Assembly: GCF_903645315.1 (NCBI RefSeq)
Contig: NZ_CAHJXL010000001.1
Coordinates: forward strand, 1,161,001-1,225,000
From: Victivallis sp. Marseille-Q1083
GTDB lineage: Bacteria; Verrucomicrobiota; Lentisphaeria; Victivallales; Victivallaceae
DNA length: 64,000 nt
Direction: 5' to 3'
A model generated the notes under the pieces. That model saw only the letters and a list, made by a program, of their open reading frames with translations, was not told the origin of the DNA and searched no databases. Both the position numbers and the translations under genes were made by a program. Within the stretch, counting starts at the first letter, position 1, and every line of letters begins with the position of its first letter. This document shows positions 3,057 to 24,637 of the stretch, one piece after another.

Positions 3057-3930
3057 GCGGATCATTGAAATCGCCGAACAATCGGCTTTTCTGAGTCTGA
3101 ACAATCATTTACTGACAATCCGGCTGCCGAATAAGCAAACTGTCACCGTTCCCGTCGGCGAGGTGCAGTGTCTTATTCTTGCCAACCCGGCGGTTACGGT
3201 CACCGGAGCGTTGCTGTCAGCTTTGGCGGAAAGCGGCGCGGTGGTGGTCGTTTCCGGCAAGGAACGTCTGCCTGCGTCCATTCAGCTGCCGATCCAAGGC
3301 AACTGGATACAAAACGAGCGTTTCCGCAGTCAAATAGAAGCCAGGCTGCCGTTGCGTAAACGTTTGTGGCAAACAGTGATTCAGGAAAAGATACGCCGCC
3401 AGGGAAAACTGCTGCAGGAACTTCACGACAGTGATTTCGGGTTATTCAAACTGGCGGGAAAAGTTCATTCCGGCGATCCGGAAAATATCGAAGGACGAGC
3501 TGCGGTGATTTATTGGAAGAACTTATGGGATAGCGCGTTTCAGCGGAATCGCGAAGCAAAGGACAGTAACCTGCTCCTGAATTACGGCTACGCAATCTTG
3601 CGCGCCATAACCGCACGAGCCTGCTGCGGAGCTGGTTTGCATCCCACTATCGGGATCAATCATCATAACCGTTATGACGCATATTGCCTGGCGGACGATC
3701 TTATGGAGCCATTTCGGACAATCGTTGACCACGCGGTATATCGGCTGAACCCTAGTAATCAAATTGTAGACGTGTTGACACAGGATATGCGCAGAAGCTT
3801 GATCGCTTCATTGCAAGCCAAAACGGAAACTCCTGACGGTATGTGGAAAATATCCGACCTCATACAACGTTCCGCCAACCAGTTGGCTGAGTCGTTTCAA
3901 AGCGGAGAAATTATGTTACGTTACAATTGA
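3049..3930 (+). CDS. cas1: Cas1 integrase of the type II-C system
   Basis: The metal-dependent integrase inserts new spacers together with Cas2. The protein is 293 residues, normal for type II Cas1. Visible family features are an all-beta N-terminal part with the early MIERIIEIAE strand, the catalytic Glu in NIEGRAA (about residue 149), the His region HPTIGINHHN, and the acidic stretch DAYCLADDLMEPFR. The ATG overlaps the end of cas9 by 8 bases (ATGATTGA), and its own end overlaps the start of cas2, which implies translational coupling. It is clearly different from the second Cas1 at 13092, so each CRISPR system carries its own adaptation module. Confidence 0.96.
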   Translation: MIERIIEIAEQSAFLSLNNHLLTIRLPNKQTVTVPVGEVQCLILANPAVTVTGALLSALAESGAVVVVSGKERLPASIQLPIQGNWIQNERFRSQIEARLPLRKRLWQTVIQEKIRRQGKLLQELHDSDFGLFKLAGKVHSGDPENIEGRAAVIYWKNLWDSAFQRNREAKDSNLLLNYGYAILRAITARACCGAGLHPTIGINHHNRYDAYCLADDLMEPFRTIVDHAVYRLNPSNQIVDVLTQDMRRSLIASLQAKTETPDGMWKISDLIQRSANQLAESFQSGEIMLRYN

Positions 3931-4259
3931 AGATGATTTCGGAGATAAAATCCGTGTGGCTTATGGTTATGTTTGATTTGCCGGTGGTCACCCTTGAAGA
4001 AAAGCGGCAATACACGCGTTTCCGCAAATATCTGGTACGCGAAGGTTTTTTGCAGCTGCAATTCTCAGTTTACGCCAAATTCTGTTCCAGTAGAGAAAAT
4101 GCCCAGAAGTATTATAATTATCTTCAATATGCAGTCCCTCCCGGAGGAAAAGTCCGGTTGCTGATGGTAACCGATAAACAATTTGGCGATATGGTTTCGT
4201 TATACGGCAAAAAAGTAGAAGAAGTAGAAAAGAAACCCGAACAACTTTTGCTTTTCTAA
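3927..4259 (+). CDS. cas2: Cas2 of the type II-C system
   Basis: This is the small ferredoxin-fold partner of Cas1 in spacer integration. The first strand, WLMVMFDLPV, carries the conserved Asp, and the C-terminus ends in EQLLLF. Two starts are possible: TTG at 3927, overlapping the cas1 stop, or ATG at 3933 giving 108 residues. No ribosome site decides clearly; the ATG is the more ordinary choice. There is no csn2 or cas4 after it, which supports subtype II-C. It is followed by about 117 bases of AT-rich sequence and then the array. Confidence 0.93.
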   Translation: MKMISEIKSVWLMVMFDLPVVTLEEKRQYTRFRKYLVREGFLQLQFSVYAKFCSSRENAQKYYNYLQYAVPPGGKVRLLMVTDKQFGDMVSLYGKKVEEVEKKPEQLLLF

Positions 4260-4376
4260 AAGACAAAAGTTATGCAAAAAACTTATCTTTGGTGTAAATC
4301 TTACCGGTTTTTCGCTCTTTTTTTAAAGGCCTTCTACAAAGTAATTTATTGCCTATCAATTTGTTGCAAAGATTAC
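4260..4376. other. AT-rich flank between cas2 and the type II array
   Basis: This is about 117 bases of AT-rich sequence with T and A runs and no gene. It borders the well-conserved end of the array, while the other end (5208-5336) is decayed. That is what one expects if new spacers enter here, but leader activity is only inferred. No clear promoter or terminator is visible. Confidence 0.4.
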
Positions 4377-5207
4377 AATGTAGCACACTTTTCAAACTCT
4401 ACAAGCCCCAGCCAACTCCATACAATACTTTGTCAAACCGTAAAATGTAGCACACTTTTCAAACTCTACAAGCCCCAGCACAGCTTGCCAACTATATTCC
4501 GGATGCAAAAAATGTAGCACACTTTTCAAACTCTACAAGCCCCAGCGTTTCACTTATTATCTGGACGACCGGCAGTAATGTAGCACACTTTTCAAACTCT
4601 ACAAGCCCCAGCATCGTGACACGGAGTTTTCGACGCCGCGAAAAATGTAGCACACTTTTCAAACTCTACAAGCCCCAGCCAAGGCGACAATGGGAAGACC
4701 GTCTGGCAAAATGTAGCACACTTTTCAAACTCTACAAGCCCCAGCTTCTCCGGTCTGATGATTGGTCAAGGTTCCAATGTAGCACACTTTTCAAACTCTA
4801 CAAGCCCCAGCGGGTGCCGGCATTGGACGAATCCCCGAAAAAATGTAGCACACTTTTCAAACTCTACAAGCCCCAGCTCAACGGATCGAGTAAAAAACTG
4901 GCGGACGAATGTAGCACACTTTTCAAACTCTACAAGCCCCAGCCCTGCAACGGCGTACCGAAATACCGCGAAAAATGTAGCACACTTTTCAAACTCTACA
5001 AGCCCCAGCCCTGATCTGCGGTATGGAATATTCTGCTTCAATGTAGCACACTTTTCAAACTCTACAAGCCCCAGCTTGGAACTTAAACCATTTAAGGCCA
5101 CATTGCAATGTAGCACACTTTTCAAACTCTACAAGCCCCAGCGAATGGAACGCTATGGCCGGATTGTATCAAATGTAGCACACTTTTCAAACTCTACAAG
5201 CCCCTGC
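4377..5207 (-). CRISPR. Type II-C CRISPR array, 13 repeats and 12 spacers
   Basis: There are thirteen 36-bp repeats. On the plus strand they begin AATGTAGCACAC and end CAAGCCCCAGC. Starts are at 4377, 4444, 4511, 4577, 4644, 4710, 4776, 4842, 4908, 4974, 5040, 5107 and 5172, with spacers of 29-31 bp. Repeats are essentially identical except the last, which ends CCCCTGC. The reverse complement begins GCTGGGGC and ends GTGTGCTACATT, resembling the Neisseria meningitidis type II-C crRNA repeat that ends GTGCTACAAT. With the tracrRNA orientation this argues for crRNA transcription from the minus strand. Each repeat in that sense contains TTGTAG, 16 bases, then TGC-TACATT, so each may carry its own promoter. 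Confidence 0.97.
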
Positions 5208-5237
5208 GGAATGTTTACGAAGTAGCTTTTACATGCG

Positions 5238-5270
5238 AATATAGCTCTCTTTAAATCGACAAGATCCTCC
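5238..5270. repeat. Vestigial type II CRISPR repeat
   Basis: The sequence begins AATATAGCTCTCTTT exactly 66 bases after the start of the last clear repeat, and it keeps pieces of the repeat (TAGC, CTTT, ACAAG) in order. It is best read as a decayed fourteenth repeat. It ends where the tracrRNA promoter begins. Confidence 0.55.
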
Positions 5271-5299
5271 TTGACTTTGTGTGGCTGACGCGTTATAAT
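5271..5299 (+). promoter_or_regulatory. Sigma-70-type promoter for tracrRNA
   Basis: TTGACT at 5271-5276 and TATAAT at 5294-5299 are separated by exactly 17 bases, a near-consensus promoter. Transcription would begin near 5306, right at the anti-repeat. Confidence 0.85.
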
Positions 5300-5305
5300 G
5301 AATAT

Positions 5306-5396
5306 GGTGCTCTTTTCAAACTTTATAAGCCCCGGTTCATTTTAGAAAGGGAGTACCCGGTTCATATTGGATTGAGATTATTTCAAAGAAATTCTG
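5306..5396 (+). ncRNA. tracrRNA of the type II-C system (3' end uncertain)
   Basis: The region 5301-5336 matches the CRISPR repeat at about 27 of 36 positions. Of the differences, seven are A-to-G or C-to-T and so keep G-U pairing with a minus-strand crRNA; one mismatch lies before the expected transcript start and one (U-U) is internal. The predicted duplex therefore covers most of the repeat. This is the signature of an anti-repeat rather than of random decay. Downstream are a short GGG-AGTA-CCC hairpin (nexus candidate) near 5350 and a hairpin with arms ATTTC and GAAAT near 5380. I see no U-rich terminator, so the 3' end is a guess. Confidence 0.8.
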
Positions 5397-5504
5397 AATC
5401 ACAAGCGCATGTTGTTTCAGGCAGAGGCAACAGATCTTTATGATCGGTTCCCGGCCAGGATTCCATTGAAAAACAAGGTGCCACCATCAGCGAGGAACGA
5501 AAAA

Positions 5505-5876
5505 ATGTGTAGAAACCTATGCGGTAAAAAGATTCAGAATCAGATCATTCTGACGCTTGATGTCAATCTGATTCTGCAACGGCTTCATGCGCTCGGTATT
5601 TCCGAACTGACGGCGATTCAGTCGCTGTGTCTGCTCAACGGCGATTATATCAACCTGGAGTGCCGGCTGCCCAACGGTGCCGTGGGAAAACTTCTTGACG
5701 ACGATAAGACTTATTACGCTACGCAAGTGGAAAGAATCGGCAGCGACCGCTGTTATGGAGTTGCCGCCGACGAACAGCAGATCGCAGTTTACGAATACGG
5801 CAGCAACGGCACGGATGCCGTGCTCGTCGCGTGGGTCAGATACCAGTCCGGCGATTGCATGAAACCGTCCGCTTGA
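5505..5876 (+). CDS. Hypothetical protein, possibly frameshifted
   Basis: This 123-residue protein lies between the two CRISPR systems; I recognise no family. The ATG at 5505 follows GAGGAACG; longer reading from 5409 would run into the tracrRNA region. The reading frame ends at 5876, but a sensible protein continuation (ETVRLKALPISWHSPGQPDG and on to a stop at 5972-5974) is present in another frame from about 5858. One missing base near 5856 would join the two into about 156 residues, so this may be a broken gene. An inverted repeat with arms AGAATCAGAT and ATCTGATTCT lies inside its 5' part (about 5536-5575). It is not an obvious CRISPR component. Confidence 0.5.
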   Translation: MCRNLCGKKIQNQIILTLDVNLILQRLHALGISELTAIQSLCLLNGDYINLECRLPNGAVGKLLDDDKTYYATQVERIGSDRCYGVAADEQQIAVYEYGSNGTDAVLVAWVRYQSGDCMKPSA

Positions 5877-6028
5877 AAGCTTTGCCGATTTCATGGCACA
5901 GCCCCGGCCAGCCAGACGGTTACTGGCTGAAGGCCATCCCGGCAAAACGATTAGGATTTTTCCTGCCGGTGTGATAAAAAAAAATGATACCGGCGGCAAT
6001 GCCATTCAAACATTGCAGGCCGTATGTT

Positions 6029-6038
6029 TGCTCGAGCA
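6029..6038. promoter_or_regulatory. Palindrome upstream of cas3
   Basis: A perfect 10-bp palindrome, TGCTCGAGCA, lies 28 bases before the cas3 start. It could be an operator for the interference operon; no clear -35/-10 pair is visible around it. Confidence 0.25.
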
Positions 6039-6066
6039 GAGTCATATTTGTCATGAGGTGGAAGAT

Positions 6067-8613
6067 ATGAAAATACCCATTCTCAAAAAGAGCGCAACCG
6101 CCCTTTTGCCACCGGAGCAGTGTCTGGCCAAAACCTGCGGAATGCAAAAAGGTTGCAATGTTTATACGCATCTTGTACTGTGCGCTCTGACGGTGCGGGC
6201 TTTGCGGGATGTGTTCCGCGGGACGCCGCGCGAAAACCTGATCTCCGTTGCCGCCGAATGGCTCGCGGCCCTGCATGACATCGGGAAAGCCACTCCCGGA
6301 TTCCAGCAGAAAATCTATGCCGCTCTCGGCGAATTTCCGGATCTCGGCGTGCAGGTCGCCAGAGCGGACCACGCGGAGTATTCCGGCTGGATACTGCGGG
6401 AACGGTACGGCGAAAGTTTTGCCGCTCTTGCCGCGGCCCATCACGGCATCGCCCGGAAACTGGGAAACCCGCAGTTCTATAATGATTCGGCGGCAGTTTG
6501 CGGCGGAGAAGGCTGGAGCGCCCTTCGGAAGCAAATACGTGAAGAAGTCATTGCCGCATTGAAGCTTGAACCGTGCGATACAACCTCGTTGCCAGCCTGG
6601 CAGGCGCCGCTGGTTCTCGGAGCGGTGGTGCTTGCGGATTGGATCTGCTCGGGACTGGAGCTGCCGTGGGGCGCCCCGTTTGATGCGATCGACCTGTCCG
6701 AGGCGGTTGCCGCGGCCGGGTTTGCGCCGCTTCGGGTCACGCCGGACCTTGATTTTGAAGCCATCTTCGAATTTCAGCCCAATCCGCTTCAGCAAGTTTG
6801 CCGGCGCAAACCGGTGCCCGGCGAGATCGTGATCATCGAGTCCGAAATGGGCAGCGGCAAAACGGAAGCGGCCCTCTACATGGCTTATCAGATGTTGGCG
6901 GCCGGCCAGGCCGACGGAATTTACTTCGCATTGCCGACACAGCTCACTTCGGAAAAAATCCATGCCCGCTTGAACCAGTTCCTCTCCAGAATCATCCCTG
7001 CGGAGAAACACCACGGCGCTTTGCTGATCCACGGCGATGCCTGGCTGGAATGGAATCTCAGAACGACCGATCCGGAAGATTGTACGACACCGGAAAATCC
7101 GGATTCGTGGTTCCAGACCCGAAAGCGCGCCCTGCTGGCTCCCTTCGGGGCCGGTACGATCGATCAGGCCCTGCTGGCGGTCCTGAATATCAAACACAAT
7201 GCGGTGCGGGCCTTCGGACTTTCCGGCAAGGTCGTAATCATTGATGAATGTCACAGTTATGACCATTACACTGGATTTCTGCTGAAAAAATTGATCCGGG
7301 AATTGCGCCATTATCAGTGTACGGTCATCGTCCTGAGCGCCACCTTGACCGGAGAGGCACGCCGGGAATTCGCGCTGCTGGAGCCGCAACAGCCGGCGCA
7401 GCCGCTGCTGCCTTACCCGCTGGTCACCTGGAGCCATCCGTCCAACGGCGGGGAGCTGACGCCGTTTTCAGGCGCTGACGCCCGGACGGTGAAGGTCGCT
7501 TTCACCGAAAATCTGGCCGAAACGTTGCAACTCGCACTGGAGAAGGCCGCCCGGGGAGAACAGGTTTTGTGGATCGAGAATACCGTTTCGATGGCTCAAC
7601 AGGTATTCCTGATGCTGAACAGTTGCGCCGGCGATTGCGAAATCGGCCTGATTCATTCACGTTTTCCCCGTTGCCGCCGCAGTGAAAATGAGAACAAATG
7701 GGTGGGGCTGCTGGGGAAAAATGGCGAAAAAAAACGGCTTGAACGGGGACGGATCCTGGTCGGCTCGCAAATATTGGAACAATCACTGGATATCGATTCC
7801 GATACCCTGATTACCCGGCTGGCTCCGATGGACATGCTCTTTCAGCGGATCGGCAGGCTGTGGCGTCACCGCAAACTCGATTTTTCGCGCCCGACAGGGG
7901 CGGAAAGGCGGGCCGTCATCCTGAAGGATCCGCGGCTGGACCAGCCGGAACAAATACTGCCTGACTGCGATGCCCTGCTGCCCTACGAAGCCTATCCGCT
8001 CTGCCGTACCTGTGAAGCCCTGAAAGACAAGCACCTCCTCACCCTGCCCGATGATATCCGGCCGATGCTGGAGGCGGTCTACCGCCGGCGCACGGAATCC
8101 GGGGCGCTCAGGGCCATGCAGGAGCGGCTGGAACGGAAGATCGAAACGCTGGAACGTCAGGCCCGGATCGCAGCAGGCCCGGTCATGGACGTGCGGGACG
8201 ACGACCACGCGACAACCCGTATCAATGACCTTCCAACCGTGCAGATCTTGCTGTTGGAGAAAAATAATCGCGGCAAACCATTGACTGATGTTCTGTATTC
8301 GCCCTTTGACGGCGCTCCGATCACGCTGCCTTCCCCCTCGGCCTCCAAGTCAAGCCATGTAGAGGCGGCCAGACGGATCATGCGGACGCTGATCACCGTG
8401 CCGGAACACCACGCACCGCGCTATGACGGATTCACGGCGGAATTTCTCGCTTCGGCGATCTGGATCGGCAACGATTCGCTCCGCCCGATCCGGGTGGCAT
8501 ATCTGGATTCCGACGGCCGGCTGCTGGACCGGGCGGCGAATCCCCTGCCGTTCCGCTACCATGAAAAAATTGGTTACACTTATGATACCCCGCAGCAAAA
8601 GGAGTGGTTATGA
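6067..8613 (+). CDS. cas3: Cas3 nuclease-helicase, type I-E
   Basis: Recruited by Cascade, Cas3 nicks and degrades the displaced DNA strand while unwinding. The 848-residue protein has an N-terminal HD nuclease domain (His in YTHLVLCAL about 35, ALHDIGK about 70, AAAHHG about 125). A superfamily 2 helicase follows: Walker A MGSGKTEAA (about 261), IIDECHSYDHY (about 392), LSATLTGE (about 424), and SQILEQSLDID with QRIGRLWRH (about 575-600). HD and helicase are fused in one chain, as in most I-E systems. The ATG at 6067 has GAGGTGG just upstream; an open extension to 5893 is rejected because it lacks a site and family similarity. Its stop overlaps cas8e (ATGA). Confidence 0.96.
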   Translation: MKIPILKKSATALLPPEQCLAKTCGMQKGCNVYTHLVLCALTVRALRDVFRGTPRENLISVAAEWLAALHDIGKATPGFQQKIYAALGEFPDLGVQVARADHAEYSGWILRERYGESFAALAAAHHGIARKLGNPQFYNDSAAVCGGEGWSALRKQIREEVIAALKLEPCDTTSLPAWQAPLVLGAVVLADWICSGLELPWGAPFDAIDLSEAVAAAGFAPLRVTPDLDFEAIFEFQPNPLQQVCRRKPVPGEIVIIESEMGSGKTEAALYMAYQMLAAGQADGIYFALPTQLTSEKIHARLNQFLSRIIPAEKHHGALLIHGDAWLEWNLRTTDPEDCTTPENPDSWFQTRKRALLAPFGAGTIDQALLAVLNIKHNAVRAFGLSGKVVIIDECHSYDHYTGFLLKKLIRELRHYQCTVIVLSATLTGEARREFALLEPQQPAQPLLPYPLVTWSHPSNGGELTPFSGADARTVKVAFTENLAETLQLALEKAARGEQVLWIENTVSMAQQVFLMLNSCAGDCEIGLIHSRFPRCRRSENENKWVGLLGKNGEKKRLERGRILVGSQILEQSLDIDSDTLITRLAPMDMLFQRIGRLWRHRKLDFSRPTGAERRAVILKDPRLDQPEQILPDCDALLPYEAYPLCRTCEALKDKHLLTLPDDIRPMLEAVYRRRTESGALRAMQERLERKIETLERQARIAAGPVMDVRDDDHATTRINDLPTVQILLLEKNNRGKPLTDVLYSPFDGAPITLPSPSASKSSHVEAARRIMRTLITVPEHHAPRYDGFTAEFLASAIWIGNDSLRPIRVAYLDSDGRLLDRAANPLPFRYHEKIGYTYDTPQQKEWL

Positions 8614-10121
8614 ATCCCGAAGAATTCAGATTCAATCTGATCGACGATCCCTGGATCAATGTCATCGGTCAGCCGCGACAAAGTTTGAAGATGTTCTTCG
8701 CCAACCCGGAACTGAGCAGACTCGGCGGCAACGCGCTGGACAAGATCGCGCTGCTGCGTTTTCTGCTGGCGTTGACCCATGCAGCGGTCCGCATCCCGGA
8801 TGCTTCGACCTGGCAGGAACTTACGCCCGGGGATATCGCGGCAGGCGTCCTGCGTTATCTGGAACAGCATCATGACTGCTTCGAGCTTTTCGGCAAACAT
8901 CCGTTTCTGCAGTTCCCGCAGCTGAAAAGCAGCCAAAAGCTCCAGCCGCTTTCCGCGCTGCAGCCGAGTGTCTCAACCGGCAACAAACCGGTGCTGACCC
9001 ACTGGAATCTGCCGGCCGCGCCGGAAATTGCCGAGCTTCCCCTGCTGCTGCTGCGCGGCTGCGGCTTCGGGTTCGGCGGTAAGAAATACGACAATTCCAT
9101 CGTACTGACTCCCGGCTATACGGGAAAATTCAATGAGAAGGGGAAGCCGGCTTCCGGCGTGCCGGGAACCCTGCTGGGTTTTCAGGGTTATCTGCACAGT
9201 TACCTGCAGGGCACAACGCTGCTGGAAACCATCCGCCTCAATCTGCTGACCGAAGAGGATGTTGCCGGATTGTCGGTCTTTTCGCGCGGTATGGGACGTC
9301 CCTGCTGGGAAAAGATGCCGGAAGGCGAAGATTGCCCGCGGGCGCGGGAATACCGGCACACCTACCAGGGGGCGCTGCTGCCGCTCGACAAATTCTACCT
9401 GCTTTGCCCGCCGAATGTCGTCATGACAGAGGGAATCCGGTATCCCAATCATCTTTCCGGGCTGGTCGATCCGGCGCTGACTTTGTACCGCGACAAAAAC
9501 AAAGACCGGGCGGTATGGACCAATCCGGAGCACCGTCCCTGGCGGGAGCTGCCGGCGATTCTCGCCTTTCTGCAGGCAGAGCAGCGCCGAAAGGCGCCTT
9601 ATACGCTCTCCTGCGGCCTCGAAAAAATCTCTCCGGACACCGAAATCCACGTCTGGACAGCCGGAGTCCAGGTCAGTTCTAATGCCGGGGAACAATATCT
9701 CTCCGGAAAAAATGATTACGTCGAGGCGGATTTTTATTTCCCGGCGGCAAACCTGGATCAGAACGGTTATCGCAAATACTGCAATATGCTCGCCGCGATC
9801 GATGGCTGCGCCAAAACACTGTATGCCTCCGTGGCCGGGTATTTCAAAGAACTGCAGAATCTGAACGGCGCCGGAATCGCCTCCCAAGCCGCGACGCTGT
9901 TCTGGGAACTGCTGGGCGAAGAGGCTCAGCAGATCGTGGCTGCCGCTTTCGCCGAAAAAATCGCCGATGAGGAAGTCCCGCCGGAATTGGCGGGACAGTG
10001 GCGCCGCCAGGTCCGGATGCTTTACAACCGCTTCTGCCCCTTCGATACCGCACGTCAACTGATGGCCTGGAGTGAGCATGAGCCGTTTCAGAGGAAAAAG
10101 AAAACCGGAAAGAAAGGTTGA
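8610..10121 (+). CDS. cas8e: Cas8e (Cse1/CasA), Cascade large subunit
   Basis: This is the large subunit of the type I-E Cascade complex. It reads the PAM and recruits Cas3. The 503-residue length and the N-terminal FNLIDDPWINV with the following hydrophobic helix LALTHAA are typical of Cse1. The central segment KKYDNSIVLTPGYTG resembles the conserved region around the PAM-sensing loop. The ATG overlaps the cas3 stop by four bases and has AAGGAG about 7 bases upstream, which favours 8610 over the in-frame GTG at 8604. It is the second gene of a tight cas3-cas8e-cse2-cas6e run. Confidence 0.95.
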   Translation: MNPEEFRFNLIDDPWINVIGQPRQSLKMFFANPELSRLGGNALDKIALLRFLLALTHAAVRIPDASTWQELTPGDIAAGVLRYLEQHHDCFELFGKHPFLQFPQLKSSQKLQPLSALQPSVSTGNKPVLTHWNLPAAPEIAELPLLLLRGCGFGFGGKKYDNSIVLTPGYTGKFNEKGKPASGVPGTLLGFQGYLHSYLQGTTLLETIRLNLLTEEDVAGLSVFSRGMGRPCWEKMPEGEDCPRAREYRHTYQGALLPLDKFYLLCPPNVVMTEGIRYPNHLSGLVDPALTLYRDKNKDRAVWTNPEHRPWRELPAILAFLQAEQRRKAPYTLSCGLEKISPDTEIHVWTAGVQVSSNAGEQYLSGKNDYVEADFYFPAANLDQNGYRKYCNMLAAIDGCAKTLYASVAGYFKELQNLNGAGIASQAATLFWELLGEEAQQIVAAAFAEKIADEEVPPELAGQWRRQVRMLYNRFCPFDTARQLMAWSEHEPFQRKKKTGKKG

Positions 10122-10126
10122 ACAGG

Positions 10127-10651
10127 ATGAATGAGAAACAGAAATGGAATCCGCAGGGATTTGTCGCGGCAGTGATCCGCCGCGCCAAGGAGGACACCGC
10201 ATTTCGCGCCGCCATGCGCCGCGCGGACAATCCGCAAACGGCCGCTTTCGCCTGGGAACATCTGGCTGCCTGGTGCGATATCGCCAGCGACCGGGAACGG
10301 CTGGCGTTTGCGCTGGCCGGAGCGGCAATCGCCCGGGAACAGCCCGATGCCGACGGCCGGAAAAACCTCGGCGAAGTTTTTCACGCCTGCTGTCCGGACC
10401 GGGATGCCAGGGAACGGGAACAGCGCCGGTTCCGCCGCCTTCTCGGCTGCGACTCCGCCGAAGAGCTCTGCGAGGTCCTGCGACCGGTCCTGCGGTACTT
10501 GCAGAACAAAGCGCCGGGCGGAATCGGTTATGCCACATTGCTGACCGATATTCTGTATTGGAATGAACGGGTGAAACTACGCTGGGCCCGCAGTTTCTTC
10601 GGACATGCCGAAACCGCAGACACCGGGGAAGAAAATCATGTTTCTGACTAA
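10127..10651 (+). CDS. cse2: Cse2 (CasB, Cas11), Cascade small subunit
   Basis: The small alpha-helical Cascade subunit is present as a dimer in the known complex and stabilises the R-loop. The protein is 174 residues. Family-like features are the N-terminal FVAAVIRRA segment, the Arg-rich middle with RRFRRLLGCDSAEEL, and a C-terminal helix ending in the VKLRWARSFFG segment, which matches the Cse2 type. An upstream TTG at 10118 overlaps the cas8e stop, but the ATG at 10127, preceded by AAAGG, is more likely. Its end overlaps cas6e by 14 bases. Confidence 0.88.
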   Translation: MNEKQKWNPQGFVAAVIRRAKEDTAFRAAMRRADNPQTAAFAWEHLAAWCDIASDRERLAFALAGAAIAREQPDADGRKNLGEVFHACCPDRDAREREQRRFRRLLGCDSAEELCEVLRPVLRYLQNKAPGGIGYATLLTDILYWNERVKLRWARSFFGHAETADTGEENHVSD

Positions 10652-11225
10652 ATTACTGCTGGATGTGAAATTCTGCCGCCAGGAGAAAATCTCCGACGCC
10701 TACGGTATTCACCGCACTGTATATTCCATGTTTCCGCCTCAGGAAGGATCGCAGCGCATCCTCTACGCGGACCGAGGACCGCGCCGGGACGGCCGGGAAA
10801 TCGTGATTCTTTCGGGCGTGCAGCCGGAACTCCCGCCGGATGTCCAGGCGTCCACACTGCGAATCGGAGAACGTTTTTTTGCAGCCCGGGAATATCGCTT
10901 TGAAGTCTTGCTCAATCCGGTCAAATGCAACCCCAAAACCCGCAAGCGGGAACCGGTCATCGGTCAACTGCCGCTGTTGAACTGGTTTGTCGGCCATGCA
11001 GAACAATGGGGTTTTCAGGCGGATCCGGAAACGCTGGAACTATTCGTCCGTCCCAGCCTCAGTTTCGTCAAAGGCGGACACGCCTATCGCCTTCACAGTG
11101 TACAGTTCCGCGGGGTTCTCCGGGTAACGGCCCCGGAACGCTTCCGGCAAAGCTTCACCGCCGGGCTGGGACATGGGAAGGCATTTGGATTCGGCCTGCT
11201 GCAACTGATGCCCGTACAACAATAA
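10638..11225 (+). CDS. cas6e: Cas6e (CasE) pre-crRNA endoribonuclease
   Basis: This nuclease cuts the type I-E pre-crRNA at the base of the repeat hairpin and stays on the crRNA handle. The protein is 195 residues. It has the Cas6e pattern YGIHRTVYSMFP, whose His corresponds to the catalytic residue, and the C-terminal Gly-rich loop GLGHGKAFGFGLL. The ATG at 10638 lies inside the end of cse2, with GGGGAAG upstream. The gene sits between cse2 and cas7e, unlike the E. coli order where it follows cas5e. Confidence 0.93.
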   Translation: MFLTKLLLDVKFCRQEKISDAYGIHRTVYSMFPPQEGSQRILYADRGPRRDGREIVILSGVQPELPPDVQASTLRIGERFFAAREYRFEVLLNPVKCNPKTRKREPVIGQLPLLNWFVGHAEQWGFQADPETLELFVRPSLSFVKGGHAYRLHSVQFRGVLRVTAPERFRQSFTAGLGHGKAFGFGLLQLMPVQQ

Positions 11226-11271
11226 TGATCGTTCGTGTCGATTCAATCAATCATATTATGGAGGTTTCATT

Positions 11272-12324
11272 ATGACCGGCAAATTCACCAACACCCGTAT
11301 TGAATTTCACATCCTGCAATCCTTTCCGGTGTCCTGTCTCAACCGTGACGATGTCGGCGCGCCGAAATCCGCAATAATCGGCGGAGTGGAACGCGCCCGG
11401 GTCAGCAGTCAATGCTGGAAGCGCGCGGTACGCCTGGCACTTCAGGCAGAGGGCGTGGCCATCGCTGCGCGCACGAAACTTGTTGCGGCAAAGATCGCGG
11501 AGCAGTGTGAGGGAAAGGGAGCCTCCCCGGAACAGGCGCAGCAGTGCGGGGAAGCCGCGGCAAAAGCATTGACCAAAACGGTCAAAGACGGAGCCAGCGA
11601 CACCTTGTTTTTCATTTCCAATTCCGAAGCGGCGGAGGTCGCTGCGGCATGTGCGGCAAACGACTTTTCGCCGCTGGGAGAAAAAGAGCTGGTCAAACTG
11701 CTCAAACAGCATGTCAACAGCGCGCTGGACGGTCTGGATATCGCGCTGTTCGGCCGCATGGTCGCCAATGTCCCTGAATTGAATATGGAGGCCGCCGCAT
11801 CGTTTGCCCATGCCATCTCAACCCACAAAGCGACCTCTGAAGTCGATTTCTTCACCGCGGTCGATGACTGCAACTGCGAAGATTCCGGAGCTGGCCACAT
11901 GGGTTCGCTGGAGTTCAATTCCGCGACCTATTACCGTTATGTGTCGCTCGATCTGGGACAGTTGGCGGCAAATTTGCACAGCGGGGAGCTGGACACGGCG
12001 GTCGAAGCTTTCGTAAAAGCGCTCTTCAAGGCTTTTCCGGCAGCGCGCCAGGCGACGATGGCCGCCGCCTGCCCCTGGAATTATGCGATCGTGACGGTAA
12101 GAAACGGCCAGGGCATGCAGCTGCCGTTCAATGCTCCGGTGCGCCCGCAGCATGGCGAAGACATGGTCTCCGCCAGCATCCGGGCACTGCAGCAACGGTT
12201 TGCCGAAGTGGAGCGCATGTATGGTTCTCTTTTCGGTTTGCGGGCAAAATTTGAGATCGGCACCCAATCCGGCGATATCGATTCCCTGCTCAGCGCCCTG
12301 AAGCAAACGATCCAGGCGATTTGA
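11272..12324 (+). CDS. cas7e: Cas7e (CasC, Cse4), Cascade backbone
   Basis: Six copies form the crRNA-binding backbone in the known Cascade complex. The 350-residue protein shows the family signature CLNRDDVGAPKSAIIGG followed by RARVSSQCWKRAVR. A GHMGSLEFNSATYYRY segment near residue 215-230 is also typical. The start is well supported: GGAGG lies 9 bases before ATG at 11272. The 46-base gap after cas6e contains only this ribosome site, so it belongs to the same operon. Confidence 0.96.
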   Translation: MTGKFTNTRIEFHILQSFPVSCLNRDDVGAPKSAIIGGVERARVSSQCWKRAVRLALQAEGVAIAARTKLVAAKIAEQCEGKGASPEQAQQCGEAAAKALTKTVKDGASDTLFFISNSEAAEVAAACAANDFSPLGEKELVKLLKQHVNSALDGLDIALFGRMVANVPELNMEAAASFAHAISTHKATSEVDFFTAVDDCNCEDSGAGHMGSLEFNSATYYRYVSLDLGQLAANLHSGELDTAVEAFVKALFKAFPAARQATMAAACPWNYAIVTVRNGQGMQLPFNAPVRPQHGEDMVSASIRALQQRFAEVERMYGSLFGLRAKFEIGTQSGDIDSLLSALKQTIQAI

Positions 12325-12341
12325 CTGCCGGAGGATGAGGC

Positions 12342-13034
12342 ATGAAGAAATTTCTGACCTTATGGCTTGAAGGGCCGTTGCAGGCGTGGGGCTATGACTC
12401 CCGGTTCGACACCCGTCGTACGTTGAGTTTTCCGACCCGTTCCGGTTTGACCGGAATGCTGCTCGCCGCCGCCGGCGCTTCCGGACCGCAGCAGGAGCTG
12501 CTGGCGGAATTAGCGGAATATCCGCTCAACGTTTACAGCTTTCACGACAGCGGCCCGGCACTCACCGACTTTCATATGGTCGGCAACGGTTACGGCTCCG
12601 CGACCAACTGGGCGAAACTGATGGCGCCCAAAAAGCTGGACGGTTCCACTCCGGTCGGCGGCGGCGCCAAACTGACCCGCCGGGATTATCTGGTTGATCG
12701 TTGTTTTGCGGCAATCTGGATCATGCCGGAACAGCCGGCGGAGAAATTCGCGGCGGCATTGCGGAATCCGGTCTACGAGCTTTATCTCGGCCGGAAATGC
12801 TGCGTCGCTTCCGAATTGATCTTTCAGGGAAGTTTTCCAACCGAATCCGAGGCGCTGGCCCGCGTCCGGGAACTGGCGGAGCGGAAAAAACGTATGCCGG
12901 AATGGGTCTATCAGGAAGTCCCGGAACGGGAAGCCGATTCCGAAAGTCTGCTGCTGGCGGATGTGCCGCTGCGCTTCGGTCTCCACAAACTCTATCGGGA
13001 ACGGTGCGTGAACAAAATGGTTTTTGTTTTCTGA
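12342..13034 (+). CDS. cas5e: Cas5e (CasD)
   Basis: Cas5e caps the 5' handle of the crRNA in Cascade. The protein is 230 residues. It begins FLTLWLEGPLQAWG and continues TLSFPTRSGLTGMLLAA, the classic N-terminal Cas5e pattern; YLGRKCCVASE and PLRFGLHKLYRER occur in the C-terminal half. It lies 17 bases after cas7e with GAGGATGAGG before the ATG. A strong hairpin follows before cas1. Confidence 0.95.
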   Translation: MKKFLTLWLEGPLQAWGYDSRFDTRRTLSFPTRSGLTGMLLAAAGASGPQQELLAELAEYPLNVYSFHDSGPALTDFHMVGNGYGSATNWAKLMAPKKLDGSTPVGGGAKLTRRDYLVDRCFAAIWIMPEQPAEKFAAALRNPVYELYLGRKCCVASELIFQGSFPTESEALARVRELAERKKRMPEWVYQEVPEREADSESLLLADVPLRFGLHKLYRERCVNKMVFVF

Positions 13035-13040
13035 TTCCGG

Positions 13041-13076
13041 CTCTGGCGGCAGGACGCAATCGTTCCGCCGCCAGAG
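13041..13076. other. Perfect hairpin between cas5e and cas1
   Basis: Arms CTCTGGCGGC (13041-13050) and GCCGCCAGAG (13067-13076) pair over 10 bp with a 16-base loop. No T run follows on the plus strand, so it is not a standard terminator. It may reduce read-through or mark processing between interference and adaptation genes. Confidence 0.6.
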
Positions 13077-13091
13077 CGGAAGGAATACAGC

Positions 13092-13949
13092 ATGACGATG
13101 CGGGAACGAATTATTGTTAAAACAACCTTATCCGATCTGCCGTTGCTGCGGGATCGCTACCCCTTTTTGTACCTGGAACACGGCCGCCTCGAAATCGACG
13201 ACTCCAGCGTCAAATGGATTTCAGCGGATGGAGAAGTGTTCCGTCTTCCGGCAGCGGTGATCTCCACTCTTCTCCTGGGGCCGGGTACGTCCGTGACGCA
13301 CGAAGCAGTCAAGATTCTTGCTTCTTTAAACTGCACCGTCTGCTGGGTGGGGGAGGACTCCTTCTGCTTTTATGCAGTTGGAGAATCCCCCACCGCAACC
13401 TCCAGCCGCTTCAAAAAGCAAATGCAACTGGCGTCGGATCCGAAGAAATCCCTGGAGATTGCGCGAAAGATGTTTCAAGTCCGTTTCCCAAATGATGATA
13501 TTTCCGGAAAGACCTTGACGGAACTCATGATGCTGGAAGGAAGCCGCGTAAAACTCTTATATTCTGAACTGGCGCAGAAATATTTCATTCACTGGGGCGG
13601 CCGTTCCTATAAACCGGGGGAATTTCAATTATCGGATTTGACCAATCAGCTCATCACGGCGGCGAATGCGGCATTATATGCGCTGACGACTTCGATCATC
13701 TATTCATTGGGGCTTTCACCGCGTCTCGGATTTGTGCATTCCGGCTCTCCGCTTCCGTTTGTTTACGATGTGGCGGATCTTTACAAAAAGGAGCTGGTCT
13801 TTGATCTGGCATTTTCCCTGACGCGTGAGCTGGGAGGAATATATGATCGCCAGCGGGCGATTTCTGAATTTCGCCGGCGGGTCATTGATTATGAGCTGAT
13901 GAAAAAATGCCCGGCAGATCTGATCAATTTACTGGGCTTGAAAAAATGA
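13092..13949 (+). CDS. cas1: Cas1 integrase of the type I-E system
   Basis: This is the type I-E spacer integrase, 285 residues. The catalytic Glu is in MMLEGSRVKLLY, the His in LGFVHSGSPLPFVYD, and the acidic residues in VYDVADLYK. The early segment DLPLLRDRYPFLYLEHGRLE is typical of the I-E family. It is not a close relative of the Cas1 at 3049, so duplication inside the locus is unlikely. Starts at 13092 and 13098 are both possible; GGAAGGA sits just upstream. The stop overlaps cas2 (ATGA). Confidence 0.96.
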   Translation: MTMRERIIVKTTLSDLPLLRDRYPFLYLEHGRLEIDDSSVKWISADGEVFRLPAAVISTLLLGPGTSVTHEAVKILASLNCTVCWVGEDSFCFYAVGESPTATSSRFKKQMQLASDPKKSLEIARKMFQVRFPNDDISGKTLTELMMLEGSRVKLLYSELAQKYFIHWGGRSYKPGEFQLSDLTNQLITAANAALYALTTSIIYSLGLSPRLGFVHSGSPLPFVYDVADLYKKELVFDLAFSLTRELGGIYDRQRAISEFRRRVIDYELMKKCPADLINLLGLKK

Positions 13950-14239
13950 TCGTTATAGTCGCTAACTCGCTTCCCGACGCAGTACGGGGCAAATTGAAGC
14001 TGTGGTGCATAGAGCCGAAGCCGAATGTATTTGTTTCAGGCGTCAAAGATCAACTGGCGCGGAAAGTGGTTGATCTGGTATTGAAATACTGTCCGCCGGA
14101 ATCGGGTATTTTAATATTTCTTGAAATCTCGGAACCGCCGTTTTTTCAAATCTTTGTCAAGGGAAATCCTTGTAAAAACATTTCCAGCCTATCCGGATTT
14201 CAACTGATCTGTGAAGAAAAGTCACAAGAGGTTGTTTGA
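13946..14239 (+). CDS. cas2: Cas2 of the type I-E system
   Basis: The protein is 97 residues, normal for I-E Cas2. It starts MIVIVANSLPDAVRGKLKLW and continues EPKPNVFVSGV, the family pattern. The start ATG overlaps the cas1 stop by four bases. The end of the gene overlaps the -35 element of the array leader promoter (14236-14241), leaving only 51 bases to the first repeat. Confidence 0.95.
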   Translation: MIVIVANSLPDAVRGKLKLWCIEPKPNVFVSGVKDQLARKVVDLVLKYCPPESGILIFLEISEPPFFQIFVKGNPCKNISSLSGFQLICEEKSQEVV

Positions 14240-14290
14240 CAATTTATCAATATATTGTATATCAGTGCGGGTTCCCAACAATATGTTCCA
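14236..14290 (+). promoter_or_regulatory. Leader and pre-crRNA promoter of the type I-E array
   Basis: TTGACA at 14236-14241, a 16-base AT-rich spacer and TATATC at 14258-14263 form a good promoter reading into the array, with the expected start about 20 bases before the first repeat. The leader is very short and AT-rich. Confidence 0.7.
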
Positions 14291-16515
14291 GTCTTCCCCG
14301 CGCACGCGGGGGTGTTTCCGCACTGGTGACGCTGGCAGGCGGATCTACCATGTCTTCCCCGCGCACGCGGGGGTGTTTCCACCAGGTAGGGCACCTCTTT
14401 GGACCGGTTGACGTCTTCCCCGCGCACGCGGGGGTGTTTCTAGATCCGCGTTGAATAATTCTACAGATGATTTGCCTTCCCCGCGCACGCGGGGGTGTTT
14501 CCACCGGATACAGCAGCGCGGCAACCAACACCGGGCCTTCCCCGCGCACGCGGGGGTGTTTCTCCACCGGGTGAAACTGACCGTTTTCATCTTTTGCCTT
14601 CCCCGCGCACGCGGGGGTGTTTCTCTGGCGCTGCGGCTTGAGCGCACCGGCCGGCTGCCTTCCCCGCGCACGCGGGGGTGTTTCCTGCTTTGCAAGTTTG
14701 GGCTAGGGTCTATCGGGGCCTTCCCCGCGCACGCGGGGGTGTTTCCGACGAAGCGGCCGCCCGGCTCTGCGGCCTGAAGCCTTCCCCGCGCACGCGGGGG
14801 TGTTTCCATAGTCATACGGGCAGCTATCAGCCGCCTCAAGCCTTCCCCGCGCACGCGGGGGTGTTTCCAGATCCTCCGGTGGCTCTTCGAATTCCAGGTT
14901 GCCTTCCCCGCGCACGCGGGGGTGTTTCCTTCATTTTTCCGATCCTTTCGGTTATGATTTTGCCTTCCCCGCGCACGCGGGGGTGTTTCTCCGCGTTTCG
15001 GTCCCAAATCGGCCAGGACGTCGCCTTCCCCGCGCACGCGGGGGTGTTTCCCTTTCCCGCCTCCAGCGCAATGCTGGTCAAGCGCCTTCCCCGCGCACGC
15101 GGGGGTGTTTCTGCGGGTATAAAAGCGCAATCCGTCCCGGTCGCGTCTTCCCCGCGCACGCGGGGGTGTTTCCGGGATGTCGTCGTCCGGATCCCACGGC
15201 TGCACGTCTTCCCCGCGCACGCGGGGGTGTTTCTGGGAGCAGATGATTTTTCAGCGGCACGATGTTGTCTTCCCCGCGCACGCGGGGGTGTTTCCAGTAC
15301 ACCGGCATCAGAGACCGAAACAACAAAGTCTTCCCCGCGCACGCGGGGGTGTTTCTGGCAAAAGTATTGCAAGCCGCCGACAGCGGCGGTCTTCCCCGCG
15401 CACGCGGGGGTGTTTCTCAGGCACCAGCATCAGCTCCGCCTGTAGCGGTGTCTTCCCCGCGCACGCGGGGGGTGTTTCTTGCTTTTTTCATAGTATATGG
15501 TTCTCCTTGTTGTCTTCCCCGCGCGCGCGGGGGTGTTTCCAACGCGCCAGATTGGATAACTGCCTGTGGAGAGTCTTCCCCGCGCACGCGGGGGTGTTTC
15601 TTCTGATTCAATATACTTGTCCATTTCATTCCGGTCTTCCCCGCGCACGCGGGGGTGGTTCTGGGTTCGTTTTTCTTGATTTTAACTGCATAGAGTCTTC
15701 CCCGCGCACGCGGGGGTGGTTCCGAGACGGAATTTTACTCGATGAAGAGCGTCTAGTCTTCCCCGCGCACGCGGGGGTGTTTCTCATAGACGTCATCCAT
15801 GCCATCCGGCGGGCTGGTCTTCCCCGCACACGCGGGGGTGTTTCTTGCACGCTCCGGGTAGTTGCCGTGCCGCCGGAGTCTTCCCCGCGCACCCGGGGGT
15901 GTTTCTTGCTATGTAGTCATACGGGCAGCTATCAGCCGGTCTTCCCCGCGCACGCGGGGGTGTTTCTTGCCGTTTTCATCCGGCGGCACGTGATTGATCG
16001 TCTTCCCCGCGCACGCGGGGATGTTTCTTAAATCTATTGCCAAAGACACCGATTTTTTACGTCTTCCCCGCGCACGCGGGGGTGGTTCTCAACAAGCCGT
16101 CCGGAAAGAGAATCCAGCCGGGTCTTCCCCGCGCACCCGGGGGTGTTTCTGGTGTGACTAGTTCTACTGGTGTTTCTGGTTCGTCTTCCCCGCGCACGCG
16201 GGGGTGTTTCTGCCGGAGTAGCGCCATGCACCGAAGAATAATTGTCTTCCCCGCGCACGCGGGGGTGTTTCTGTCTGCTGATCGCTTTGCAGAATCTTGT
16301 TGCCGTCTTCCCCGCGCACCCGGGGGTGTTTCTTTGTGGCAGCAGCTGGCGACCGATGCGCTGGCGTCTTCCCCGCGCACGCGGGGGTGTTTCTATAGGT
16401 CCCAATCAAAGCCGGGAGCTGTGATAGTCTTCCCCGCGCACGCGGGGGTGTTTCTTCTGCTTCAAACCGGCAATGGAAGCAAAATCAGTCTTCCCCGCGC
16501 ACGCGGGGGTGTTTC

Positions 16516-16549
16516 GCCGCTGCCGGCCGCCAGCGGCGCCCCGATCCTG
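16516..16549 (+). other. Self-targeting spacer
   Basis: This 34-base spacer starts GCCGCTGCCGGCC and ends CGATCCTG. It is identical over its full length to 23990-24023, inside the Gfo/Idh/MocA gene. It is one base longer than normal, and its first base is G where almost all other spacers have C or T. Confidence 0.95.
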
Positions 16550-17098
16550 GTCTTCCCCGCGCACGCGGGGGTGTTTCTTCGTCCGGGAAACCGAACCGAT
16601 CATCCTTGACGTCTTCCCCGCGCACGCGGGGGTGTTTCTGCCGCTCCGAACGGCATGCTCGATTTAAAAGAGTCTTCCCCGCGCACGCGGGGGTGTTTCT
16701 ACCAAGACAACGACGGACCAAAACGCCGCGATGTCTTCCCCGCGCACGCGGGGGTGTTTCTTCGTCCGGGAAACCGAACCGATCATCCTTGACGTCTTCC
16801 CCGCGCACGCGGGGGTGTTTCCAAACCCGATCTATAGCGGCAGTCACCTCCGTCGTCTTCCCCGCGCACGCGGGGGTGGTTCCTCGTTTTTATACGGTGT
16901 GTTGTACTCCGGCAGGTCTTCCCCGCGCACCCAGGGGTGTTTCTGTCATCCAATCGACTTCTTGTAGACGTTCCGAGTCTTCCCCGCGCACACGGGGGTG
17001 TTTCTCAGGACTACTTACATTGAGGACGAAAACTAGGGTCTTCCCCGCGCACGCGGGGGTGTTTCCTCAGATGCGATTTGAGTTTTCTCATAGCAACA

Positions 17099-17464
17099 GT
17101 CTTCCCCGCGCACGCGGGGGTGTTTCCTGGTTCGGCGCTTCCTTCTGCATCGCTTCGATGTCTTCCCCGCGCACGCGGGGGTGTTTCTGGAAACGAAGTA
17201 AAAAAAGCCATTGTAAAAATGTCTTCCCCGCGCACGCGGGAGTGTTTCCTCTTTGAGTCAACTGCTGGCGATGGAGGCGATGTCTTCCCCGCGCACGCGG
17301 GGGTGTTTCCTGGTTCGGCGCTTCCTTCTGCATCGCTTCGATGTCTTCCCCGCGCACGCGGGGGTGTTTCTGGAAACGAAGTAAAAAAAGCCATTGTAAA
17401 AATGTCTTCCCCGCGCACGCGGGAGTGTTTCCTCTTTGAGTCAACTGCTGGCGATGGAGGCGAT
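17099..17464 (+). repeat. Tandem duplication of three repeat-spacer units
   Basis: The 183-bp block 17099-17281 is repeated at 17282-17464. The three spacers are the same in the same order, and both copies carry the same rare repeat variant (GCGGGAGTG at 17221 and 17404). This shows duplication by recombination rather than repeated acquisition. Confidence 0.95.
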
Positions 17465-18685
17465 GTCTTCCCCGCGCACGCGGGGGTGTTTCTGTCTGAT
17501 GTTTTTCGGCGCACTACCAAGCAGAGTCTTCCCCGCGCACGCGGGGGTGTTTCCAGCAATGACCAGATCGTTAGGAGGTCAGCATGGTCTTCCCCGCGCA
17601 CGCGGGGGTGTTTCTCTGCGCTTTGTGGTCAACTGCTTTCTGGCGGCGTCTTCTCCGCGCACGCGGGGGTGGTTCCTCATATCGAAAGGAAAGAAAAATG
17701 AAGAAAGAGTCTTCCCCGCGCACGCGGGGGTGGTTCTTTATAAAGCTGGTGGTGGCAAAATGACTGGCGGTCTTCCCCGCGCACGCGGGGGTGGTTCTGT
17801 AACGAGGCTTGGTTGGCAGCCTTTGCTGAAGTCTTCCCCGCGCACACGGGGGTGGTTCTGTGTATGACTCCGCCGATGTTGCCGGTGAAGGGTCTTCCCC
17901 GCGCACACGGGGGTGGTTCCGGCTTCGACGGAATACCGCCGGAAAGGAGCAAGTCTTCCCCGCGCACACGGGGGTGGTTCCCTGGTTCGTTGCCCTGCAA
18001 TATTGGTTGGACAGTCTTCCCCGCGCACGCGGGGGTGTTTCCAGGTACCAGCCGGTGCTGCTGAAACCGAAATAGTCTTCCCCGCGCACGCGGGGGTGTT
18101 TCTTCTGCTTCAAACCGGCAATGGAAGCAAAATCAGTCTTCCCCGCGCACGCGGGGGTGTTTCCGAATGATGATATTGAAAGCAATGCCGAATTTGGTCT
18201 TCCCCGCGCACGCGGGGGTGTTTCTGGTGGACGCTTTTAATACCAGCACGAACGAGCGTCTTCCCCGCGCACACGGGGGTGGTTCTCAGGGGTTGGACGC
18301 GCGGCTGGTGACGCCGGAGTTCTTCCCCGCGCACGCGGGGGTGTTTCACGATCCGCAGCGCGTGGCGACAATCGAAGGTGTTCTTCCCCGCGCACGCGGG
18401 GGTGTTTCTGGATAGAGTTGCGTCAAGACATGCTTCACGGCGTCTTCCCCGCGCACACGGGGGTGGTTCTCCTGCAATTTGCGGCAAATTTTATTGTGTG
18501 AAGTCTTCCCCGCGCACACGGGGGTGGTTCTCTGTTGTCATCATCTTTTGAGCAGTAAAAGAAGTCTTCCCCGCGCACACGGGGGTGTTTCTTACTGCGT
18601 TCAGAAAACAGCGGTAAATCCCGAGTCTTCCCCGCGCACGCGAGAGGAAGAGCCCGGTGGAGGAGATTTTAAGCGAACTGTCGTC

Positions 18686-23599: not shown

Positions 23600-24637
23600 T
23601 CAAACCCGAACCGGCCTGCCCCCGGCAGCCGACTCGTAGAAGGCATCCAGAAGTTTCATCACCGTCACGCCATCCTGCGGATCGACCAGGAACGGCACTC
23701 CTTTGACCAGCGCGTCCAGAAAGGAATAACAGGCATCATGACAGTCCGGAATCGGCGGATGCAGCTTGGCGTCGAACGGCATCCCGCCGATGTCCCGGTA
23801 ACATTCCACCTCGAAGTCATAATTGTCGCCGACGTTATACTGATACAGTCCGCCGTTGGTCCCCAGCAGCCGGGTGGAAATTTCATTCATCTGCCGGATA
23901 TGGCCGGCCCAGGAAGCGGCCACTTCCAATGTCGCGCCGTTTTTAAACCGGACAAAACCGCAGGCCAGGTCTTCGACATCGAACTGCTTGCCGCTGCCGG
24001 CCGCCAGCGGCGCCCCGATCCTGTTGTAAGTCGTTCCCATCACCCATTCCGGTTCCGGGTATCCCATCAGCCACAATGCCAGATCGAGCCGGTGCACCCC
24101 GAGATCGATCATCGGCCCGCCGCCGGACTGCGCCTTTTTGCCGAACCAGCCGCCGAAGCCGGGAAAACGGTGGCGGCGCAGCCAGACGGTCCGCCCGTAA
24201 TAGATTTCCCCGAGTTCGCCGCGCTCCAGCAATTCCTTCATCGCCACCGACTGCGGCGCGAACCGGAACCGGAAATCGATGCCGAGCCGTTTGCCGGTCC
24301 GGGTCGCCGTGTCAAGCATCTGCTGCGCTTCCGCGGCGGACAGCGCCATCGGTTTCTCGCAGAACACATGGCAGCCGGCCTCCAGCGCGGCGACGGTAAA
24401 ATGTTTGTGCAGATAATTCGGCACGGCCACGCAGGCGACGTCCAATTTTTCCCTGGCCAGCATCTCTTCGGCGTCGACATAAGCGCCGGCGATCCCGTAT
24501 TCCGCTTTGACCCGTTCCATCAACGGCACGTCGATATCGGAAATCGCCACCACTTCACCGGCCGGATGGTTCCAAAAGGCGGCGATATGCCGCCGCCCCA
24601 TGCCAAGCCCGATAATTCCGATCCGCAATTTCTCCAT
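23600..24637 (-). CDS. Gfo/Idh/MocA-family oxidoreductase (contains the self-targeted protospacer)
   Basis: This is an NAD(P)-dependent sugar or polyol dehydrogenase of 345 residues. The Rossmann motif is IGIIGLGMGRRH near the N-terminus, and the catalytic pair region is VFCEKPMAL with the later GGGPMIDLGVHRLDL (Asp/His). The exact substrate cannot be read. It follows the ThuA-like gene with only a 3-base gap. Bases 23990-24023, coding for about NRIGAPLAAGSG, match a spacer of the type I-E array exactly. Confidence 0.92.
   Translation of the reverse strand: MEKLRIGIIGLGMGRRHIAAFWNHPAGEVVAISDIDVPLMERVKAEYGIAGAYVDAEEMLAREKLDVACVAVPNYLHKHFTVAALEAGCHVFCEKPMALSAAEAQQMLDTATRTGKRLGIDFRFRFAPQSVAMKELLERGELGEIYYGRTVWLRRHRFPGFGGWFGKKAQSGGGPMIDLGVHRLDLALWLMGYPEPEWVMGTTYNRIGAPLAAGSGKQFDVEDLACGFVRFKNGATLEVAASWAGHIRQMNEISTRLLGTNGGLYQYNVGDNYDFEVECYRDIGGMPFDAKLHPPIPDCHDACYSFLDALVKGVPFLVDPQDGVTVMKLLDAFYESAAGGRPVRV

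Follow-up and report, generated by a model that had tools for sequence, protein, structure and literature searches.

A self-matching spacer, probably inserted in reverse, in a type I-E CRISPR array of Victivallis sp. Marseille-Q1083

Background

Self-targeting spacers that lack a protospacer adjacent motif (PAM) and spacers inserted in flipped orientation are both already known. Flipped spacers were reportedly described in a type I-E system in an earlier report cited by Staals et al. 2016. That study itself is a laboratory time course of a type I-F system, in passages of which flips are estimated at fewer than 0.5% of spacers, wrong lengths are traced mostly to the PAM-distal cut, slips are found to raise the chance of a flip, and chromosomal spacers other than the last acquired, which are rare, have a non-consensus PAM at the target in half of the cases (PMC5059440). 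Tolerated self spacers without a PAM were described by Stern et al. 2010, as recounted in part of a later paper (PMC6990116). The type I-E system of Vibrio cholerae, according to passages of the report on it, recognizes AAYN32 targets; all four purine-first spacers examined gave no interference when the system was uninduced, and strong induction rescued two of the four (PMC7677007).

The spacer of interest here, spacer 37 of a 70-spacer type I-E array, is comparable to each of these. With the type I-F flips, as those passages present them, it would share capture beside a canonical PAM, integration in the reverse orientation, an apparent absence of a PAM and a PAM-distal error of length, the difference being that it is a fixed natural spacer in a type I-E array rather than a product of a time course; its situation matches the type I-F case of a chromosomal spacer that is not the last acquired and has a non-consensus PAM at its target (PMC5059440). 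Like the spacers of Stern et al. 2010, as recounted, it has an exact chromosomal match and no apparent PAM in a live cell, and in contrast to them its first base and the flank of its target allow reversal to be proposed as the reason (PMC6990116). The array resembles that of V. cholerae, as described in those passages, in its 33-nt spacers with a 5′ pyrimidine, in what appear to be AAYN32 targets, and in a purine-first spacer that would be inactive as those were when uninduced, but its PAM is inferred, and in V. cholerae strong induction restored interference to half of the purine-first spacers (PMC7677007). Among the papers searched on flipped and self-targeting spacers, no mention of a link between the first base of a spacer and a self match was found in titles, opening lines of abstracts and selected passages.

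Results and Discussion

The type I-E locus and its array

The window, meaning the whole stretch of 64,000 nucleotides that was analysed (G000:C1:1161001-1225000), is part of a 4.82 Mb genome in five contigs. It contains a type I-E locus in the order cas3-cse1-cse2-cas6e-cas7-cas5-cas1-cas2, followed by the array:

5893..8613, + strand: cas3 helicase-nuclease (cas3_core and cas3_HD models over their cut-offs, full-length PRK09694 under its cut-off)
8604..13034, + strand: Cascade genes cse1, cse2, cas6e, cas7 and cas5 (all over NCBIfam cut-offs)
13092..13949, + strand: cas1 of type I-E (TIGR03638, 302 bits)
13946..14239, + strand: cas2 of type I-E (TIGR01873)
14240..14290, + strand: probable leader, in the gap that separates cas2 from the first repeat
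14291..18591, + strand: type I-E CRISPR array of 71 repeats and 70 spacers, with a further degenerate repeat near 18625

The assignment to type I-E follows from the eight cas genes together with an array whose repeats are 28-29 nt. Type I-E models for cse1, cse2, cas6e, cas7, cas5, cas1 and cas2 score over cut-off, and cas3 is recognized through its core and HD models, with three of seven motif patterns tried for it matched (HD, DExH, SAT). The earlier note had suggested looking for an inactive Cascade; all eight genes are present and uninterrupted and match their families. The leader is assigned to the cas2 side of the array because it is toward the opposite end that the repeats decay. Directly upstream, at 3-5336, lies a type II CRISPR locus with cas9, cas1 and cas2 (by position) and an array of 13 repeats and one degenerate repeat, none of whose spacers exactly matched any other place in the genome.

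Once three repeats are corrected for single-base insertions, spacer length is 33 nt in 68 of the 70 cases, 32 nt in one and 34 nt in one, spacer 37. The first base is T in 42 spacers and C in 26; the two exceptions are spacer 37 (G) and spacer 67 (A). Similar arrays in four relatives have a pyrimidine first in 134/139 spacers and a length of 33 nt in 133/139. Spacer 67 is the 32-nt spacer and lies, within 18319-18408, between two 29-nt repeats, each with an extra T, as though the repeat had been cut one base out of place in the staggered cleavage of integration.

Several spacers between 16455 and 18135 are duplicated: spacer 36 equals spacer 63, spacer 38 equals spacer 41, and the block 47-49 is identical to the block 50-52 (183 bp). 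These duplications show that the array has undergone internal recombination. The order of spacers was rejected as an age clock for spacer 37, because the spacers on either side of it, 36 and 38, reappear as 63 and 41, so the array has been reshuffled. Spacers 9 (14807-14839) and 27 (15906-15938) have 25 bases in common in a shifted frame and are perhaps two captures at one site of related phages; the common 25-mer has no exact match in IMG/VR.

The self match of spacer 37

The following features concern spacer 37 and its match:

16488..16515, + strand: consensus repeat (28 nt) on the 5′ side of spacer 37
16516..16549, + strand: spacer 37 of the 70, 34 nt long, with G as its first base and an exact self match
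16550..16577, + strand: consensus repeat (28 nt) on the 3′ side of spacer 37
23600..24637, - strand: Gfo/Idh/MocA oxidoreductase gene, intact, 345 aa (PF01408, PF22725, PF02894)
23987..23989, + strand: CTT directly before the self target, where the crRNA needs its PAM; not AA-Y
23990..24023, + strand: self target within the oxidoreductase gene, with the same sequence as spacer 37
24023..24025, - strand: AAC, proposed capture PAM, in register with the reversed spacer 37 (by the AA-Y motif deduced below)

Since both flanking repeats equal the 28-nt consensus, 16516-16549 is a true 34-nt spacer. The earlier note had singled it out as identical to 23990-24023 in the Gfo/Idh/MocA gene with the match ending where the spacer ends, as beginning with G where nearly all others begin with C or T (68/70), as one base too long, and as preceded at the target by T (CTT), and it was right on each of these points. 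The match is exact, lies on the cell's own chromosome outside arrays and prophages, and so makes spacer 37 a self-targeting spacer in the usual sense. In a BLAST search of the whole array against its own genome it has E = 3e-9, and among the other spacers (40 of 44 first-look candidates scored) no exact full-length match to the genome was found. A pattern search allowing up to three mismatches in 61 genomes (its own and 60 relatives) returned two matches, the array and the target, both in its own genome and none in the 60 relatives; the reversed pattern returned none in the same 61 genomes. Chance is ruled out as the source of the match, and nothing in the assembled sequence hints at misassembly.

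The crRNA of spacer 37 would equal the template strand of the gene and would therefore be antisense to the oxidoreductase mRNA. The eight proteins tested around the target have the character of sugar metabolism and transport and not that of a mobile element. A distance of 9.7 kb separates the target from the first repeat. Chromosomal spacers of Escherichia coli, according to passages of two reports, come preferentially from near the CRISPR locus and the terminus, and in some reports from the origin too (PMC10011333, PMC12539621), and by analogy a local origin of spacer 37 is plausible. Closeness was rejected as proof of an acquisition hotspot: the pair was found within one window, so its closeness is partly selected, and in the second case described below the target sits on a different contig from the array.

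The protospacer adjacent motif

The earlier note had suggested deriving the PAM from targets of the other spacers, and these point to AA-pyrimidine (AA-Y). A prophage on the same contig (about 1.973-2.0125 Mb), read as P2-like, encodes major head, tail sheath, tape measure, portal, baseplate and integrase families. Three spacers have homologous sites in it with 4 to 7 mismatches: spacer 29 in the integrase gene (29/33), spacer 28 in a tail-fibre-like gene (27/33) and spacer 20 in a holin-family gene (26/33), each preceded by AAA/T, where the slash marks the start of the protospacer. Shuffled spacers gave a mean of 0.025 matches of at least 26 in the same 60 kb over 40 rounds, and reversed spacers gave none. 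Many chance hits arose in a scan at the peptide level, of which only those scoring above the maximum of the reversed control (43) were kept, for spacers 14, 20, 28 and 29. The site of spacer 14, which has the top peptide score, is less similar (25/33) and is preceded by CAG/C, starting with C where the spacer has T; a less secure site of spacer 33 in relative G046 (26/33, AAA/A) starts with A where the spacer has T. Thus AA precedes four of the five homologous sites, and AA-T is found at all three whose first base agrees with the spacer.

The three prophage sites of at least 26/33 all fit a PAM of the AAN type whose last base is retained as the first base of the spacer. These sites together with the first-base rule make AA-Y the probable PAM. 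No protospacer was found for the C-first spacers, so AAC is taken to be a PAM on the strength of the first-base rule and by analogy with V. cholerae. Adopting the PAM on the V. cholerae precedent alone was rejected, and the prophage sites of the organism itself were used first. AAC, AAT, AAG and AAA all appear in the type I-E part of a PAM catalogue, as far as its passages go (PMC8482600). A 28/33 chromosomal match of spacer 8 without AAC is probably due to chance in GC-rich DNA.

Other searches yielded no protospacer. Among phage records, BLAST of the array matched four: two are copies of one Streptomyces phage record, the only one to overlap spacer 37, at 84% over 44 bases spanning the end of the spacer and the repeat (E 0.4), another is a contig whose type I-E locus is of the bacterial kind, and the last has a 27-base match. 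A contig filed as 'Bacteriophage sp.' from human faeces (L012, MT835722.1) carries at 3863-14413 cas3, cse1, cas7 and cas1 of type I-E and an array-like stretch, as well as hydroxyethylthiazole-kinase and GGDEF genes, and is probably a bacterial contig. Plasmid records matched in 57 cases; in the best 15 of the 57 the matches are long, in multiple pieces and 65-70% identical, resembling arrays with a similar repeat, and no record's best place among these reaches 95% identity. IMG/VR, scanned with two cores of spacers and with three proteins of the prophage, yielded no protospacer, and five distant phage contigs from IMG/VR contain no spacer match of at least 25. In prophage sequence from two relatives, and in another terminase region of the organism's own genome, matches of at least 24 came only from the GC-rich spacer 37 and were at the level of chance. 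A scan of genome contigs, a collection that may exclude records of this or very near genomes, with a 25-base core of spacer 37 gave a single hit, a Burkholderia site (29/34).

Orientation of spacer 37

At the forward end the target of spacer 37 is flanked by CTT/G, with no AA-Y in register. The nearest forward AAY is an AAC whose pyrimidine lies 6 bases outside the spacer, so none falls within 5 bases, nor within the distance of about 3 nt that would mark a slipped spacer. On the opposite strand and at the opposite end the flank is ACAA/C, with AAC at offset 0, an arrangement that would arise by chance about 3% of the time (the frequency of AAY at any given position is 2.6-3.5%) and whose standing as a PAM is deduced as above.

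A flip is accordingly the interpretation favoured here with reasonable confidence. Cas1-Cas2 would have captured chromosomal DNA at AAC, with the cut at the PAM correctly placed and the PAM-distal cut displaced outward by one base, and the prespacer would then have been integrated in reverse. The resulting crRNA would match the gene perfectly, but the flank presented to it is not AA-Y and Cascade could not license the site, leaving spacer 37 a silent passenger in a surviving cell. A flip with a one-base PAM-distal error explains the first-base G, the length of 34 nt and the absent PAM together, and the cell would survive because the crRNA meets no PAM. A flip cannot be read from length alone: in the relatives, all the spacers of 34 nt (4/139) begin with a pyrimidine. 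The PAM derives from three diverged protospacers, all T-first, and a chance of about 3% for an in-register AAC is not negligible; the PAM overall, AAC especially, is like the acquisition history and the absence of interference a deduction from sequence.

The earlier note had proposed instead that acquisition from host DNA slipped by one base, putting the crRNA out of register with a forward PAM and sparing the cell. Host origin and survival without a usable PAM fit the data well; the slip does not, with AA-Y as the deduced PAM, no AAY within 5 bases forward, and AAC in register at the reverse end.

Alternative explanations

Forward capture, in which the prespacer was excised out of step with its PAM or had none, has some precedent, slips being common among the mis-cut spacers of type I-F in the passages available (PMC5059440), and an upstream forward AAC does exist with its pyrimidine 6 bases before spacer 37. 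That distance exceeds the 5 bases searched in vain for a closer AAY, a slip of one relative to CTT needs an NNT PAM without AA, which none of the three AAA/T protospacers backs, and the in-register AAC at the other end is left to a chance of about 3%, all of which make forward capture rather unlikely. It is improbable that the spacer was derived not from the cell's own chromosome but from a mobile element or sister-strain DNA carrying the same gene: an identical copy would be indistinguishable by sequence from the resident one, but no other copy exists in the 61 genomes, and the sugar metabolism and transport proteins around the target do not suggest a mobile element. The records searched for such a source offer the 84% overlap with a Streptomyces phage over 44 bases (E 0.4), no plasmid best place of at least 95% among the 15 of 57 records listed, and the Burkholderia site of 29/34 from contigs that may exclude the organism's own or very near records.

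Two further explanations concern the activity of the system. If the system were inactive through an anti-CRISPR, silence or mutation, any self spacer would be tolerated, and the resident prophage does carry partly matching sites with AAT flanks; their 4 to 7 mismatches mean that this tolerance needs no inhibitor, the cas genes are uninterrupted and match their families, and the lack of self matches among 195 pyrimidine-first spacers is what active purging would leave, although this is weak evidence given the low base rate. Inactivity is thus very unlikely, and an anti-CRISPR or dead Cascade is unneeded, since the flip explains tolerance and the eight cas genes are uninterrupted. That Cascade binds the site without cutting and lowers expression of the oxidoreductase gene has a parallel in a type I-E* self spacer without a detected PAM that is reported, in passages of one study, to repress hutT in Klebsiella (PMC12188710), and the crRNA would be antisense to the mRNA. 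Such a function is extremely improbable for a purine-first spacer with no PAM and a target in mid-gene: a perfect full-length match, if stably bound, is expected to trigger cutting, and with the sequence in 0/60 relatives, conservation of the pair is unsupported.

A second case and the first-base link

Besides spacer 37, a similar case was found in relative G176, of the same order and another family, which has two arrays with 49 spacers, only one of them purine-first. That spacer is also the only exact self match there, its target lying on another contig in a gene for a zinc-type alcohol dehydrogenase and the match extending one base into the last C of the repeat. The forward flank of the target has no in-register AAY, an AAT occurring at +4, and the reversed end has AAT at offset +1; the chance of an AAY within one base of an end is 8-10%. 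This spacer is likely to be a flip with a slip of one. Two further BLAST matches in G176 were set aside, one of which straddles no spacer at 24/33 or better and the other of which is outside the array. In relative G137, of the same class, with 83 spacers of which four are purine-first, no spacer has a self match (40 of 55 candidates scored). The queries for the arrays of G137 and G176 covered all counted spacers, one of the 84 inter-repeat gaps of G137 having been dropped because it holds a 3.8-kb element. At least two more copies of this element of the large type I-E array of G137 (L065, G137:C1:498001-510000) are present in the G137 genome.

Over the three genomes, own, G137 and G176, with the seven spacers of G002 and G078 left out, two of seven purine-first spacers match their own genome and none of 195 pyrimidine-first spacers does (Fisher p 0.0010; p 0.0011 for the 196 unique spacers), the other five purine-first spacers having no self match. 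With the organism's own genome left out, there is one self spacer, and it belongs to the five purine-first spacers among 132 (p 0.04), which is the fairer figure because spacer 37 prompted the test. A self spacer in the correct orientation should be detrimental to the cell, and no such spacer was observed.

Conclusions

Self-targeting spacers are a standing paradox, and spacer 37 seems to record its own harmlessness, with a purine first and a PAM at the wrong end. As a single case, it is an ordinary, harmless accident of a known kind. It may be proposed, tentatively and with more doubt than confidence, that in type I-E systems with an AA-Y PAM host-derived spacers persist almost only if reversed, that a purine first base reports the reversal, and that this is the main escape from autoimmunity in the lineage. 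If the link between a purine first base and a self match holds in a larger survey, the frequency of capture from the host and of survival by reversal would become readable from arrays.
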